Virus record (IMG/VR): IMGVR_UViG_3300020470_000126
Location: 1-31,249 of that record
DNA from: a virus
DNA length: 31,249 nucleotides
Reading direction: 5' to 3' (one strand)
Shown: positions 7,314 to 16,610 of the stretch, one piece after another
Layout: each line of letters opens with the position of its first letter
How positions within the stretch are numbered: position 1 is the stretch's first letter
Notes under the pieces: generated by a model
The model's input: the letters and a program-made list of their open reading frames with translations, nothing else
Database searches by the model: none
Told to the model about the DNA's origin: nothing
Translations under genes and position numbers: made by a program

Positions 7314-9161
7314 ATGAAAAAATTTTTAACTCATTGGACATTCTCGTTCATAACTCTTATTGCTTTAACTTTTATTGGTTTACAAGAACCATATGTCAAA
7401 GAAATATTAAAATTAAAATCATTTGACATTCTGATACAACAAGAAGAAAAAGAATTATCACAAGACATTGGTATAGTTACGATAGATGAAAAGGCAATTG
7501 AAAAGTATGGACAATGGCCTTGGTCAAGAAATGTCATTGCAGAGGTCATAACAAATTTAAGACAATCAGGTGCTGGTGTGATTATGATACCTATACTATT
7601 TTCAGAAGAAGATAGATTAGGTGGTGATGATATATTATCACAAACATTGATAGACAATGGTGTTGTGATTGCACAAGTAGGTACATCTCAAATCAATAAA
7701 AACTCTGTTCCAAGAGGAGTTGCAAAAATAGGAAATCCATTACCATATCTTTTTGAGTGGGATGGTATGTTAGGGCCAATCCCGATGCTAGGTCAAAATG
7801 CAAATGGAGTTGGTGTAATCAATACTGCACCAGAAATAGATGGTGTTGTAAGAAGAATACCATTGATAATGAGAATAGGTGAAGACACTTATCCTACCAT
7901 GGCAGTAGAAGTGATTAGAGTTGCAACAGGTAATCCAAGTTATCAAGTTAAGGCAGGTGATGGCGGAGTTCAAGCAATAAGAGTACCAGGGTTTCCTATT
8001 ATCAATACAGACCCAAATGCTAGAATCTGGTTACATTGGAACAAACAGTTTGAAATTATATCAGCCTCAGAGAATAACTTTTCAAAGTTTGAAGGTCGTA
8101 CTGTAATTATAGGAATGACTGCAGAAGGTCTAGGTGGAATTATTGCAACACCAGTTGGTGAACAATATGATTATATGTTATCGGCATCCACATTACAAAC
8201 TATGATAGATGGCAAACAAATTAATCGTTATGACATTAGTTCATTTTTAGAATTAGTTTTATCTTTTATTCTAGGTATTGTAGTTATACTGATTGCAAGA
8301 TTTACACCTTATTGGTTTGTTGGTTTAAGTTTACTATCACTTTATGGTATAAGTGTTTATGGTTCTTATTATCTGTTTAACACACATTTAATATTATCAG
8401 ATGTCAGTTGGATAATTATTGTAATCACTATAGTTGGTATGCATAGTATCTTTAACAGATTCATTTTAGAGTTTAGATTAAAACAACAAATAAGAAAACA
8501 ATTTGAAACTTATCTAGACCCAAGACAAGTTGCAGAGTTACAGAAAGACCCAAGTAAATTAAAACTAGGTGGTGATAGAAAAGAGATGAGTTTTCTGTTT
8601 ATGGATATTGTAGGATTTACACCAATATCAGAATACTATAAAAACAAAGATGACCCAGAGGGATTAGTTGAAGTTATCAATGACTATCTAAATCGTATGA
8701 CTAAGATTGTTTTGAATAATGGTGGAACAGTTGATAAGTACATGGGTGACTGTATTATGGCATTTTGGAATGCACCACTTGATTGTGAAGACCATGCAGA
8801 GATGGCAGTTAAGACTGCTATCGAATGTGCAGAAGAAACAGAAAGACTAAAACAGAATTTTAGAGAAAGAGGACTACCAGATATCAATATAGGTTCTGGT
8901 GTCAATACAGGAACATGTATAGTTGGTAATATGGGTAGTGATACTAGATTCGATTATTCAGTCATTGGAGATGCGGTAAACTTGGCCGCAAGATTAGAGG
9001 CAGCAACAAGAAATTACAAAGAGGAAAATGGTGGTATTGTATCTACCCTCTATTCTTCCTATACTATGGAAAAACTTAAAACCATCAAATCAGTAGAAGT
9101 TGATAAAATCAAAGTCAAAGGAAAGGAAGAATTAATCACAATCTACAAACCCTCTAAATGA
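7314..9161 (+). CDS. CHASE2 sensor-class III adenylate/guanylate cyclase
   Basis: A 615-residue membrane enzyme. One N-terminal membrane segment (about 8-24), an extracytoplasmic CHASE2 domain (about 30-300, with IGIVTIDEKAIEKYGQWPWSR), three membrane segments (about 311-383), then a cytoplasmic class III nucleotide cyclase domain. Metal-binding aspartates are D431 (FMDIVGFT) and D479 (KYMGDC); K475 and S549 fit the adenine-selecting pair of the IIIb subtype; N556 and R560 are the transition-state residues. All catalytic residues are present, so it should make cAMP. It starts 3 bases after curlin-like protein 2 and closes the cassette. A complete receptor cyclase is unusual in a phage. Confidence 0.9.
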   Translation: MKKFLTHWTFSFITLIALTFIGLQEPYVKEILKLKSFDILIQQEEKELSQDIGIVTIDEKAIEKYGQWPWSRNVIAEVITNLRQSGAGVIMIPILFSEEDRLGGDDILSQTLIDNGVVIAQVGTSQINKNSVPRGVAKIGNPLPYLFEWDGMLGPIPMLGQNANGVGVINTAPEIDGVVRRIPLIMRIGEDTYPTMAVEVIRVATGNPSYQVKAGDGGVQAIRVPGFPIINTDPNARIWLHWNKQFEIISASENNFSKFEGRTVIIGMTAEGLGGIIATPVGEQYDYMLSASTLQTMIDGKQINRYDISSFLELVLSFILGIVVILIARFTPYWFVGLSLLSLYGISVYGSYYLFNTHLILSDVSWIIIVITIVGMHSIFNRFILEFRLKQQIRKQFETYLDPRQVAELQKDPSKLKLGGDRKEMSFLFMDIVGFTPISEYYKNKDDPEGLVEVINDYLNRMTKIVLNNGGTVDKYMGDCIMAFWNAPLDCEDHAEMAVKTAIECAEETERLKQNFRERGLPDINIGSGVNTGTCIVGNMGSDTRFDYSVIGDAVNLAARLEAATRNYKEENGGIVSTLYSSYTMEKLKTIKSVEVDKIKVKGKEELITIYKPSK

Positions 9162-9190
9162 GAATCATTCTCAAATAGGAATCATTCTCA
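9159..9190. promoter_or_regulatory. Two tandem Fur-box-like palindromes
   Basis: The first, 9159-9173, reads TGAGAATCATTCTCA, a perfect 7-1-7 inverted repeat of the Fur-box form (consensus TGATAATNATTATCA). The second, 9176-9190, TAGGAATCATTCTCA, keeps the right half and most of the left. Their centres are 17 bp apart. They overlap the cyclase stop codon and lie about 35-65 bp upstream of a -35 box. A hairpin role at the end of the cassette mRNA is possible, but there is no T-tract. Confidence 0.45.
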
Positions 9191-9224
9191 TTTACACCCC
9201 TCAAAAATAGGGCCAAATTAGGCC

Positions 9225-9253
9225 TTGACAATACTTGTTCCACCTGTCATAAT
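9225..9253 (+). promoter_or_regulatory. sigma70-type promoter
   Basis: TTGACA (9225-9230), 17-base spacer, CATAAT (9248-9253). A GGCC-aaatta-GGCC dyad (9211-9224) abuts the -35 box. It would drive the small gene at 9288 with a leader of about 28 bases and is probably an early or middle promoter. Confidence 0.72.
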
Positions 9254-9287
9254 AGCTACATAATCATAGAAAGAGAGAGAGGAAATT

Positions 9288-9494
9288 ATGACAAATTACT
9301 TAAACCCCAAAAATATGACAAAAGTCACAAATGATGAAATGAGAGATATGATAGATTATCACATAGTTTATTCTGATGAAAAAAATCAATACCCTAATGT
9401 ATGGATAATGATGATGTATCTTCACGAATTACAAGAAACTAATGGATTTTCTATTTTATTGGAATATTGGAGGCATCCAAGATTCCTAAAATAA
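9288..9494 (+). CDS. Small phage protein of unknown function, 68 aa
   Basis: First gene after the promoter at 9225, with a strong purine-rich ribosome site (GAGAGAGAGGAAA) 5 bases before the ATG. The product is soluble, with acidic and aromatic residues (YPNVWIMMMYLHELQETNG) and no recognised domain. Its position directly behind a strong sigma70 promoter suggests an early host-interaction protein, but nothing in the sequence says what it does. Confidence 0.65.
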   Translation: MTNYLNPKNMTKVTNDEMRDMIDYHIVYSDEKNQYPNVWIMMMYLHELQETNGFSILLEYWRHPRFLK

Positions 9495-13006: not shown

Positions 13007-13507
13007 ATGGCAAGACAAGGCAATTTTACATTATTGTTTTCAGAGATACTTGACAAAGTACATAAGGCGAAAACAAAATCAGAAAAAGTAGCAATACTAG
13101 TAATTAATGATACACCATCATTAAGAATGTTATTAAAAGCATCTTTTGACCCTACTAAAGAATGGGTAATACCAGAAGGTGAAGTTCCATATACACCAAA
13201 TGAAGCACCTGAAGGTACAGAACATACAGTTCTGGCCCAAGAGGCAAAAAAATTATGGCACTTTATCAAAGGTGGTGATAATGACACATCACAAGCACAA
13301 AAAGAAAACATGTTTATACAAATGTGTGAAGGTTTGTGTGCAGCAGAGGCAAAATTATTGATTGCGGCAAAGGACAAAAGATTACATCAAGTGTACAAAG
13401 GTTTATCGAAAGATGTAGTAAAAGAGGCATTCGGTTGGGATGACAATTTTATGATTGAAGCACCAGAGGTATACCCACAAGCACCAGGTAGTGCTTCAGG
13501 TGTATAA
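13007..13507 (+). CDS. Conserved T4-like phage protein (DUF6433-like)
   Basis: A 166-residue protein beginning MARQGNFTLLFSEILDKVHKA; the ATG at 13007 is preferred over an upstream TTG inside rnh. I recognise the family by its pattern (TPSLRMLLKASFDP, LWHFIKGG, KENMFIQMCEGLCAAEAKLLIAAKDK), widespread in marine T4-like phages and usually near replication genes. The last part (AFGWDDNFM) is characteristic. Biochemical function is not known. It lies 1 base after rnh. Confidence 0.7.
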   Translation: MARQGNFTLLFSEILDKVHKAKTKSEKVAILVINDTPSLRMLLKASFDPTKEWVIPEGEVPYTPNEAPEGTEHTVLAQEAKKLWHFIKGGDNDTSQAQKENMFIQMCEGLCAAEAKLLIAAKDKRLHQVYKGLSKDVVKEAFGWDDNFMIEAPEVYPQAPGSASGV

Positions 13508-13512
13508 AAAAC

Positions 13513-13541
13513 TTGACAATTATTGTTCAGTCTGATACAAT
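13513..13541 (+). promoter_or_regulatory. sigma70-type promoter for a structured leader
   Basis: TTGACA (13513-13518), 17-base spacer, TACAAT (13536-13541), right after a stop codon. Predicted start near 13548, giving a leader of about 96 bases before the ATG at 13644. Confidence 0.75.
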
Positions 13542-13547
13542 GGTTAT

Positions 13548-13643
13548 TAGAAGATGAGGTACAAAAAGTTCCCGTTCATATCGACCTACTCTCTCTCGAC
13601 CTCATCATAAGGTCGGTATGAACACCAGAGGTTATTTATTATT
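13548..13643 (+). ncRNA. Structured 5' leader with long hairpin and pseudoknot potential
   Basis: A 14-bp stem pairs 13574-13587 with 13610-13623 (one G-U pair, otherwise perfect). The 22-base loop contains ACCTCATC (13599-13606), an exact complement of GATGAGGT at 13553-13560 upstream, so the loop could pair outward as a pseudoknot. A third, competing 6-bp pairing joins CGACCT (13597-13602) to AGGTCG (13610-13615). The mutually exclusive pairings look like a switch. It lies between a strong promoter and the gene at 13644. No known riboswitch class is recognised. Confidence 0.6.
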
Positions 13644-13913
13644 ATGAGTAGAGCAGTTAAAAAAATACCTTATAAATTTGTCCATGTATTTTGGATTGAT
13701 ATTACATCAGATTCATCATGGAGAAGTATAGAAGATGTCAAAGAAGAAAATTTACCTAGATGTCTGAGTACAGGTTTTCTCATTAGTGATGAAGAAGATG
13801 TAATCAGATTGGTAAGTGATTTCAATTTCAAGGAAGATGGCAGCATTGATGAATGTGGTAATTCTACAATCATTCCAAAATGTGTTGTACAAGAAGTCAA
13901 AGAAATTTCTTAA
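13644..13913 (+). CDS. Conserved phage protein of unknown function, 89 aa
   Basis: First gene behind the structured leader. The product starts with a basic patch (SRAVKKIPYKFVHVFWIDITSDSSW), then an acidic region with two cysteines, and ends CVVQEVKEIS, a mixed alpha/beta layout (WIDI..., GFLISDEEDVIRLVSDF). Proteins of this type recur in T4-like marine phages without a known role. Its ribosome site (AGAGG) is weakly spaced, about 13 bases from the ATG, compatible with control by the leader. Confidence 0.62.
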   Translation: MSRAVKKIPYKFVHVFWIDITSDSSWRSIEDVKEENLPRCLSTGFLISDEEDVIRLVSDFNFKEDGSIDECGNSTIIPKCVVQEVKEIS

Positions 13914-13917
13914 TTAA

Positions 13918-14049
13918 ATGAATACTATTATACCAGATGTTATGATATATGTTATTGCTATAATATCAACAATAGTATTATTGATTGATTTAAAAATAAG
14001 AGAAAAAAAGAGAGAGATAGAGGAAAAAAATTTTAAGAAAGATGTTTGA
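13918..14049 (+). CDS. Single-span membrane miniprotein, 43 aa
   Basis: A 43-residue frame: a hydrophobic segment (about residues 5-24, IPDVMIYVIAIISTIVLLID) followed by a strongly charged helix (KIREKKREIEEKNFKK). It overlaps the next gene by 8 bases. The size and shape fit a small phage membrane protein such as a spanin-like or holin-like factor, but no specific motif is present. Confidence 0.5.
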   Translation: MNTIIPDVMIYVIAIISTIVLLIDLKIREKKREIEEKNFKKDV

Positions 14050-14815
14050 ACATGTAATCAGAAATCCATTTGATATGAAGCCAGTTTTCAATCCATGTGA
14101 AAACCCAAAGTTTAATGCAAATGAAACTGACATACAAATTCAAGCACAGAGAAAAATAGAATTAGATAATTTAGGCCCAGACATTTGGTTTGAAACAGAT
14201 GTTGCAAAGGAAGAAAAACTTGCTGAAAGAACAGCAGCAAAATTATCATTGTTTAATCAACCTGATGATTATCAATTATTTACAGAATGTAATAGTATAA
14301 AAGATTTAGGTTTGGCGATTGAAGATGATGTAGTTATCATGCATAATGGTAAACTTGAAGCGTGCTTTGTGGCATTTCCGTCATCATGGAATGCAGGAGA
14401 TAAAGTAGGAAAAACTTTGGCAGAATTACATGAACCCATTGCAGATAATAAGGCATTAGTTCGTGCATCTGATGGCATCATAAGAGCCATGACAAGTGGG
14501 CAATCATATCATAGATATACTTGGGGTATATCATCTTTAGGTGGATATAGTAATCATCCAAAATATGATAGACCCGATTTTAATAGTTTAGATGATTTGA
14601 CATTCAGAGTAGAACATGAAAGGACTGCAACAGTCATAGAGGGGACCACAGCAGTCTTCTTAATACATGTTGATATCTACCCTCTAAAAGATGTCTTAAA
14701 GACTGATTTTGGACTGATTAAGGGGGCTATTGATAGTATGAGTGAGAGTGTATTAGAGTATAAGAATTTAGTAAAAGTAAAGGAGTTGATGAATGAACAT
14801 ATTTTATCTACATGA
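14042..14815 (+). CDS. DUF3445 / heme-dependent oxidative N-demethylase-like protein
   Basis: A 257-residue protein. Residues 112-130 (FPSSWNAGDKVGKTLAELH, then EPI) match the signature of the DUF3445 family, followed by conserved elements (HRYTWGISSLGG at about 157, FRVEHERTATV at about 189, and AVFLIHVDIYPL at about 204). Members include a heme-dependent oxidative N-demethylase subunit and dimethylamine monooxygenase components that convert methylated amines to amine plus formaldehyde. If active, the phage copy would process methylated amines, abundant in seawater. The heme ligand cannot be confirmed by eye. It overlaps the next gene by 23 bases. Confidence 0.68.
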   Translation: MFEHVIRNPFDMKPVFNPCENPKFNANETDIQIQAQRKIELDNLGPDIWFETDVAKEEKLAERTAAKLSLFNQPDDYQLFTECNSIKDLGLAIEDDVVIMHNGKLEACFVAFPSSWNAGDKVGKTLAELHEPIADNKALVRASDGIIRAMTSGQSYHRYTWGISSLGGYSNHPKYDRPDFNSLDDLTFRVEHERTATVIEGTTAVFLIHVDIYPLKDVLKTDFGLIKGAIDSMSESVLEYKNLVKVKELMNEHILST

Positions 14816-15332
14816 AGACCCAATACAAAATATCAAGTGGCATGTTGATAAACATGTTGTAAAAATGGCAACAGAATATGCACAATTACTATCTACTGCA
14901 CATAGGTTTTTAGATGGTGAATTGTATGAAGACAGAACAAAAAATAATCACAGAATCAAAAGGTGGAAACTACCTGATGAAAGGGAAAGTATATTGTACA
15001 AAGCAAGTCATGTGAATCATCCTTGTAATGTGTGGGTGCGTGAAAGTAAATCAAATTATCGTTTGATGTACGAGATTTACATGGCTTGTCTTTCGGAATA
15101 TACATATAGATATGGAAAAATACATGGTGCATCGAAACCATCTATTAGTCTATTAAGGGCACCAAACAATATTAAAGACATTGGACTGACGGAAGTACCT
15201 CAGGCAATGCCAGAATATTGTAAGGTGGTGGGCAATCCTATTCAGGCATATAAAAATTATTATATGAATGAAAAGAAAGGATTTGCGAATTGGAAAAATA
15301 GAACGAGGCCAGAATGGTATGGAAATATTTAA
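14793..15332 (+). CDS. Conserved phage protein with DKHVVKM signature
   Basis: A 179-residue protein with AGGAG 7 bases before the ATG. It belongs to a family seen in many marine phages: MNIFYLHEDPIQNIKWHVDKHVVKM at the start, LLSTAHRFLDG, NHPCNVWVRESKSNY, EYTYRYGKIHGA, then QAMPEYCKV and AYKNYYMNEKK...W...RPEWY at the end. The conserved H, K, R and W pattern suggests an enzyme or nucleic-acid-binding protein, possibly distantly related to pyrimidine-dimer glycosylases, which I cannot confirm. Confidence 0.62.
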   Translation: MNIFYLHEDPIQNIKWHVDKHVVKMATEYAQLLSTAHRFLDGELYEDRTKNNHRIKRWKLPDERESILYKASHVNHPCNVWVRESKSNYRLMYEIYMACLSEYTYRYGKIHGASKPSISLLRAPNNIKDIGLTEVPQAMPEYCKVVGNPIQAYKNYYMNEKKGFANWKNRTRPEWYGNI

Positions 15333-16280: not shown

Positions 16281-16610
16281 ATGATAGAAATAAATGGTAA
16301 ACAATTAGAAGTAGATGAAGAAGGTTATCTTTCTAATCTAAATGATTGGGAAAAAGATGTTGCAACAGTAATGGCAAAAGAAGATGGTATTGATTTATCA
16401 GAAGACCATTGGGAGATAATTAATTTTCTTCGTGAGTATTATGAAGAATATCAAATTGCACCTGCCGTTAGAGTTTTAACAAAAGCAGTAGGAAAGAAAT
16501 TAGGAAAAGATAAAGGTAATAGTAAATATCTTTATGAGTTATTTCCATATGGCCCTGGTAAACAAGCATGTAAATTTGCTGGATTACCTAAACCAACAGG
16601 TTGCGTATAA
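16281..16610 (+). CDS. dsrC: DsrC, two-cysteine sulfur carrier of the Dsr pathway
   Basis: A 109-residue protein of normal DsrC length. It has the expected DEEGYLSNLNDWEKDVA start, the HWEIINFLREYYEEYQIAPAVR core and the flexible C-terminal arm ending GKQACKFAGLPKPTGCV. Both redox cysteines are present: C97 and the penultimate C108, separated by 10 residues, which defines true DsrC rather than TusE. The arm carries a sulfur atom as a trisulfide to or from DsrAB and hands electrons to the membrane complex. Phage dsrC genes have been reported from sulfur-oxidiser viruses. Confidence 0.93.
   Translation: MIEINGKQLEVDEEGYLSNLNDWEKDVATVMAKEDGIDLSEDHWEIINFLREYYEEYQIAPAVRVLTKAVGKKLGKDKGNSKYLYELFPYGPGKQACKFAGLPKPTGCV

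Follow-up and report, generated by a model that had tools for sequence, protein, structure and literature searches.

The hairpin downstream of the DUF6433 gene analysed here belongs to a conserved family of structured RNAs, absent from Rfam, in T4-like marine phages; we regard this family as almost certainly real. The RNA occurs in several transcript settings at a conserved locus, and the best single mechanism for it, to which we give a probability of about 0.55, is that of a small structured RNA acting in trans through a CU tract in its loop. The window, by which we mean the whole stretch of DNA analysed, is a 31,249-base IMG/VR virus record, similar in its genes to T4-like marine phages of the Kyanoviridae type (a T4-RNaseH-like exonuclease, DUF6433 and phrog_624), as judged from Pfam and PHROG matches and from relatives. 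It also encodes HODM-like (PF11927) and DsrC-like (PF04358, E 4e-48) proteins at 14042-14815 and 16281-16610, which are unusual cargo for a phage. The parts of the locus are as follows.

13007..13507, + strand: DUF6433 gene (PF20025, phrog_461; Pfam and PHROG matches), the fixed upstream landmark, with the hairpin downstream of it in relatives
13513..13541, + strand: sigma-70-type promoter TTGACA-17-TACAAT, 11 of 12 consensus positions, with TG preceding the -10 box
13553..13560, + strand: 5' strand GATGAGGT, at the predicted transcript start; the loop-pairing (pseudoknot) strand
13574..13587, + strand: 5' arm of the 14-bp hairpin stem
13588..13609, + strand: conserved 22-nt loop ACTCTCTCTCGACCTCATCATA
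13589-13597, + strand: CU tract in the loop, the proposed contact site
13599-13606, + strand: loop segment ACCTCATC, which pairs with the 5' strand GATGAGGT
13610..13623, + strand: 3' arm of the hairpin, identified by sequence and stem covariation
13627..13631, + strand: ribosome-binding site AGAGG of the 89-aa gene, read from the sequence
13644..13913, + strand: 89-aa gene (phrog_25889), co-transcribed in the window's clade, with its ATG at 13644

All 14 pairs of the hairpin noticed in the preliminary description of this DNA can form, and it is the minimum-energy fold; the 8-base complement of the loop, the consensus promoter and the ribosome site just after the stem are likewise present as described there. 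The fold of 13566-13631 has a z-score of -3.46 that was equalled by none of 200 shuffles, and that of the longer segment 13545-13660 has a z-score of -1.57, equalled by 11 of 200. Taken alone, the 8-mer complement is unremarkable (two sites in the window against 0.85 expected, with as many in 23 of 100 shuffles), and its significance comes from its conservation across relatives, not from single-sequence odds. The third pairing that had been put forward as part of an interlocking switch, CGACCT (13597-13602) with AGGTCG (13610-13615), is present in the window; all six of its pairs are kept in only 10 of 41 motif-bearing relatives, the others having it in part, and we rejected it as a conserved switch.

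Relatives of the locus were collected by searching IMG/VR with the 89-aa protein, the best 80 of 88 loci being kept. A loop-pattern scan returned 77 stretches, four of which (L115, L125, L134 and L140) have no fold around the motif and were put down to chance. Once wider scans had been added, the stem test covered 75 distinct loop contexts; 49 of these fold, 48 in the window's clade (group A) and one in the distant locus L288, and the 26 that do not were set aside, one of them (L068) being a real element cut by a contig end. The alignment used for the counts comprises 40 rows after eight duplicates had been dropped. Standard pairs occupy 99.6% of its 556 stem cells, with G-U pairs tolerated, and double-sided changes are found at 10 of the 14 stem pairs; double-change cells number 81 against 18.7 expected (0 of 500 shuffles), and only 29-37% of cells are paired when the partner strand is slid by 1-3 columns. 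Within the loop, CTCTCTCTC and ACCTCATCA are invariant across the 40 rows, apart from adjacent extra CU or short insertions. Since the stem keeps its pairing through double changes and the loop is nearly invariant, selection acts on the structure of the stem and on the sequence of the loop. Compensatory changes across relatives, on which the preliminary description had staked its proposal of a novel structured RNA, were therefore found, and together with the conserved loop and the lack of an Rfam match to the element they bear that proposal out.

Upstream of the element, 40 of 43 distinct relatives have a sigma-70-type promoter, and in those 40 the sequence ATGAG or ATGA follows 7-13 nt after the -10 box, which places the 5' strand at the predicted transcript start. 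The promoter is absent from L003, L020 and L073, the last of which is cut by a contig end. L003 and L020 keep the hairpin directly after the DUF6433 stop codon, with neither promoter nor 5' pairing strand. Of 31 distinct sequences, which average 7.2 Watson-Crick bp between the 5' segment and the loop, 26 have at least 6 bp. The register of this pairing shifts from GATGAGGT/ACCTCATC in the window to ATGAGGTCT/AGACCTCAT in L075 and, where GG has been lost in L001 and L006, to TATGATGAG/CTCATCATA; besides the two loci without the strand, it is weak in L099, L133 and L143. Several relatives that have no hairpin (L011, L015, L016, L022, L024 and others) carry TATAAT inside a small palindrome, for example GTCCTGTATAATGGAC, before the gene that follows DUF6433.

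More distant T4-like phages were reached through DUF6433 and phrog_624 and then scanned for hairpins with pyrimidine loops. Those of group B, such as L290 and L413, have the form GATTCGGTTGGC [ACCTCTCTCTCTCATCAAAAAACTA] GCCAGCCGAATC; group D (L288, L327, L328 and L456) has the loop ACCTCTC(TC)AACCTCATCATC, group C (L463-L471) a loop like ACCTCTCTCTCTCAAATCTCTCTCAAGA, and the isolated phage Melnitz-1 a hairpin near position 37,300 of MZ577095 with the loop ACCTCTCTCTCGACTTTCTCTCTCA. Stems outside group A share no obvious sequence with those inside it, and because such hairpins were the target of the search, their pairing is not independent evidence; such evidence comes from their position and from a covariance model. 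All 39 distant hairpins lie on the same strand and downstream of DUF6433 and/or upstream of phrog_624, as in the window; the loci were fetched through these two genes with flanks of at most 4 kb, which fixes nearness in advance but not side, order or strand.

A covariance model built from group A only matched 24 of 25 non-clade loci at the hairpin with an E of 10 or less (L326 was the one without a match), and 12 of the 25 at E < 0.05. The search took in 25 of roughly 40 non-clade loci, and its E-values, rough as they are, were best for L288 (5.8e-5), L456 (6.2e-5) and Melnitz (4.8e-4), against nothing better than 3.7 in the control genomes Mosig, HTVC008M and G002. A few other low hits, such as that at position 532 of L463 (E 0.54), are probably due to chance. 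Scanning Mosig, HTVC008M, G002 and G005 for CU hairpins returned only matches unlike the element, and we take these four genomes to lack it, with the proviso that a diverged form could be missed by such a scan. A MAFFT alignment of the non-clade hairpins misplaced their stems and was excluded from the counts. The loop 18-mer occurs in 12 stretches of bacterial and archaeal genomes, none of which folds around the loop, and these were treated as chance; a DNA similarity search of isolated phages gave seven records with short, weak matches, none of them relevant.

The transcripts in which the hairpin lies differ between the groups. Of the 48 group A elements, 47 have the 89-aa gene behind them, and in the last the contig runs out; the gene begins 71-200 nt away in 14 of the 48. 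A tRNA match lies between hairpin and gene in L074, L085, L112, L142, L099 and L133; L075, L076, L154, L160 and L222 gave no tRNA match at gathering level there, although the sequence looks similar. Between the hairpin and the 89-aa gene, nothing resembling a terminator was found on the + strand of the window, and without such a terminator the RNA is part of an mRNA in this clade. In Melnitz, by comparison, the hairpin is transcribed from a promoter of its own, TTGACT-17-TATGAT, and is directly followed by an intrinsic terminator (fold z = -7.8), which the terminator scan missed, we would guess because the terminator's stem can absorb the U-run. A hypothetical protein annotated here, Melnitz1EXVC043M_65 (MZ577095 37295-37474; L202 3874-4053), starts inside the hairpin and spans the terminator, and is possibly an artefact of annotation.

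In groups B and D, a short ORF is followed by the hairpin, a second hairpin and a terminator, with fold z-scores of -7.2 in L413, -7.1 in L456 and -4.6 in L327. In L413 (3466-3489), L285, L290, L293, L325, L416 and others, the loop region of this terminator contains TTGACA, placed as the -35 box of the next promoter, so that terminator and promoter overlap. The hairpin of group C is followed at a distance of about 10 nt by a tRNA, with an Rfam tRNA match at this position in 6 of 6 loci, and the terminator comes after the tRNA. The tRNAs that follow the hairpin (L074 1886-1956, L463 2623-2693 and similar ones) have by eye the anticodon UCC (Gly) and an unusual T-loop, GGCAGTA; they score 39-61 bits in Rfam, and ARAGORN found them in 2 of 14 group A loci scanned. 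Related phage contigs also encode tmRNA (L290 7926-8288 and L288 4898-5232), for which the permuted tmRNA model matched as well. The 89-aa gene was absent from 40 of 40 non-A loci scanned, all of which have the hairpin, and the RNA is thus not tied to that gene.

Repeatedly, though not universally, the 3' portion of the loop has a partner in cis, which lies before the hairpin in group A and beyond it in groups B and D. In the latter two groups, the loop of the second hairpin bears a UGAUGAG-like sequence complementary to the first loop, with at least 8 bp in 15 of 29 cases and at least 6 bp in 22; the complement is lost in the other seven, where the loop is CUCUCAAAAAAAC or alike. Measured against dinucleotide shuffles, it reaches p < 0.05 in 11 of the 29, most strongly in L327 and L328, whose second-loop partner is AUGAGGUUG(A). 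The part of the loop that is always kept, in all groups, is the CU tract.

These features can be put together in a model in which a rigid hairpin of 11-16 bp would display the pyrimidine loop CUCUCUC in single-stranded form. In the window's clade, the RNA would start from its own promoter and make up the leading portion of the 89-aa gene's transcript, in some cases with a tRNA in between; elsewhere, it is delimited by its own terminator and so needs no gene behind it. Within the loop, the 3' portion ACCUCAUCA can pair in cis with a UGAUGAGG-like strand, located at the 5' end in the window and in the second hairpin loop in relatives, and this pairing might fold or mask the remainder of the loop. 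We infer that the RNA acts in trans with the CU tract as its contact site, and that its most likely partners would be purine-rich ribosome-binding sites (GAGAG, GAGG) of phage or host mRNAs, the translation of which would be blocked.

A pyrimidine tract presented on a stem, flanked in at least one isolate by a promoter and a terminator, is the anatomy of a trans-acting small RNA. The tract provides a conserved single-stranded contact sequence in every group; a promoter of its own, a generic feature of small RNAs, is found in the window, in the 40 of 43 clade members mentioned above and in Melnitz, with groups B and D following an ORF instead; and a terminator of its own, equally generic, is found in Melnitz, in groups B and D and, after the tRNA, in group C. 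The missing terminator in the window's clade and the missing promoter in L003 and L020 count against this interpretation. Staphylococcus aureus RNAIII and RsaE, alphaproteobacterial CcsR and AbcR and cyanobacterial Yfr1 are trans-acting small RNAs with CU-rich, anti-Shine-Dalgarno loops, and the element resembles them in that a stem presents a pyrimidine stretch complementary to purine-rich ribosome sites; it differs from them in being encoded by lytic T4-like phages, in showing no sequence relation in Rfam scans and in having targets that are putative.

With respect to such targets, many sigma-70 promoters of these phages are followed, just before the ATG, by GAGAGAG leaders complementary to the CU tract. 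Comparing promoter-linked genes with other genes, GAGAG leaders number 2/10 versus 4/191 in G001, 3/5 versus 6/60 in G003, 3/6 versus 3/75 in G012, 3/18 versus 9/194 in Melnitz and 1/3 versus 0/51 in the window. A first count with another promoter pattern was mixed, with 0/2 promoter-linked leaders in the window and 0/8 in G001. G005 (4/20 versus 4/169) and G002 (3/15 versus 5/180), in which no element was found, show the enrichment too, which makes this test of the leaders as targets mixed in its outcome; promoter-linked leaders number 0/6 in Mosig and 1/8 in HTVC008M. In duplex energies at gene starts, the true loop did no better than reversed or shuffled loops. One promoter of the window itself, near 9226 (9226-9290), has a leader with GAGAG just before the ATG. 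Palindromes like AATGAGAATCATTCTCATT lie upstream of a phage promoter in the window (9156-9193), in L309 (about 14873-14893) and in L106, and presumably resemble a Fur-type iron box.

The fixed loop on a stem of variable sequence would fit recognition by a protein equally well, and a serious, if less likely, alternative is that the CU-rich loop is bound by a phage or host RNA-binding protein, whether the RNA serves as operator or sponge or belongs to a small ribonucleoprotein. One candidate is the neighbouring 89-aa protein, which has no Pfam match and for which an AlphaFold2 model from a 42-sequence alignment reached a pLDDT of 90.7 (72.6 earlier, with 23 sequences). The predicted fold is a small Sm/SH3-like beta-barrel, which we take as a lead only. 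When the model was compared with the PDB, most of the chains returned were Hfq or Sm, and Hfq, at Z up to 6.3 (rmsd 1.8 Å over 51 residues), was among the nearest matches; these Z-scores stay below 8, within the range of common arrangements, and are tied with those of unrelated small barrels. Foldseek E-values were 0.09 or worse, and there was no strong PDB match for the protein. Against a role in binding, none of the 42 members matched the Pfam Sm/Hfq families, and a search of the 89-aa profile against PDB sequences listed no Sm or Hfq chain; moreover, the gene is missing near the element in all of the other-group loci scanned, and relatives of the protein occur in podovirus-like pelagiphages, phrog_25889 being common in pelagiphages. 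A more elaborate scheme, a phage riboregulation module in which a format-changing small RNA silences many early mRNAs with GAGAG leaders through its CU loop and, in the window's clade, is co-transcribed with a phage-encoded Sm/Hfq-like RNA-binding 89-aa protein, strikes us as decidedly improbable.

Another serious alternative, less likely again, is that the RNA is a cis-acting leader of the 89-aa gene, in which ACCUC in the loop would pair either with the 5' GAUGAGG or with the ribosome site AGAGGU and so switch translation. The regular position of the gene after the clade's elements, the usually conserved 5' strand and the ability of AGAGG to pair with ACCUC speak for such a leader, and sequestration of the ribosome site by this short complement is possible; the site itself is unpaired in the predicted fold of 13566-13631. 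Yet ribosome sites in the clade are often only AGGT, leaving a short complementarity to the loop, the third pairing is inexact in most members, a tRNA separates hairpin and gene in several of them, and the other groups have the same hairpin with its own terminator or before a tRNA and without the 89-aa gene. For these last reasons, the leader, riboswitch or T-box-like RNA suggested in the preliminary description is not supported as a general function. Neither in the window nor in the relatives that were scanned did an Rfam 15 model match the element at gathering threshold, and the four weak hits obtained up to E = 10 on 13400-13700 (301 bases; E 2.7-8.9) were taken as chance. The T-box model had no gathering match in the window and none up to E = 10 on the same 301 bases, and T-box leaders control aminoacyl-tRNA synthetase or amino-acid genes; the downstream gene here, phrog_25889, bears no such annotation. 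The riboswitch models described in Rfam gave no match in the window or in 13400-13700, and the anatomy of the RNA as predicted, a perfect hairpin with a pyrimidine loop, appears to offer no sign of an aptamer.

That the hairpin only confers stability or aids processing, as a 5' cap-like structure, a 3'-UTR protection or a help to tRNA processing with no regulatory partner, is suggested by its very stable stem and by the tRNAs or terminators that it adjoins in several groups; this is very improbable, given that it leaves the conservation of the loop across groups with unrelated stems unexplained. Finally, a DNA element (origin or operator) or a leader peptide is barely credible: the inverted repeat lies beside a promoter, and in some members, strikingly so in the window, a short reading frame runs from the ATG of GATGAGG across the loop, but the members are split 17, 9 and 14 among the three frames, with lengths of 2-38 codons. 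For this lack of conservation we rejected the peptide, and the tolerated G-U pairs and terminator-bounded forms fit an RNA.

Among known phage RNAs, the mRNA of T4 gene 32 has a 5' pseudoknot; the element is similar in having a pseudoknot near the transcript 5' end, but has a different locus and is also found where the downstream gene is missing. The small and antisense RNAs c4, sar, OOP and CfrI, for several of which partners are described in the portions of the literature available to us (PMC12197685, PMC2864571), are likewise phage-encoded; compared with them as presented there, the element has no adjacent antisense partner that we could identify and no Rfam match. Structured RNAs of marine T4-like phages include, in the available text of three papers (PMC2864571, PMC9004378, PMC9964418), wcaG, manA, PhotoRC-II and the glnA/glutamine riboswitch; the element matches none of these as given there, being a simple hairpin with a cis pairing as opposed to an aptamer-like fold. 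The accessible part of the Melnitz paper (PMC9004378) reports a glutamine riboswitch and a tmRNA, and a word search of that text found none of the terms 'sRNA', 'small RNA', 'noncoding', 'hairpin' and 'stem-loop'. Nothing like the element appears in the available parts of Weinberg 2010 (PMC2864571), the Pelagibacter structured-RNA paper (PMC2704228), the phage small-RNA review (PMC12197685), the S-CREM1 paper (PMC9964418) or the Red Sea mdRNA-seq study (PMC5069720). We thus found no description of it in the open-access literature, to the extent that these texts were available, and one may exist elsewhere.

Little is known about small RNAs in lytic phages that infect streamlined ocean bacteria. 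The RNA described here is conserved, fixed in position and provided with a conserved contact loop, and since Melnitz, an isolate whose host is in culture, carries one of its forms, post-transcriptional control can be tested directly in these viruses. The element may represent a new way for them to control genes.
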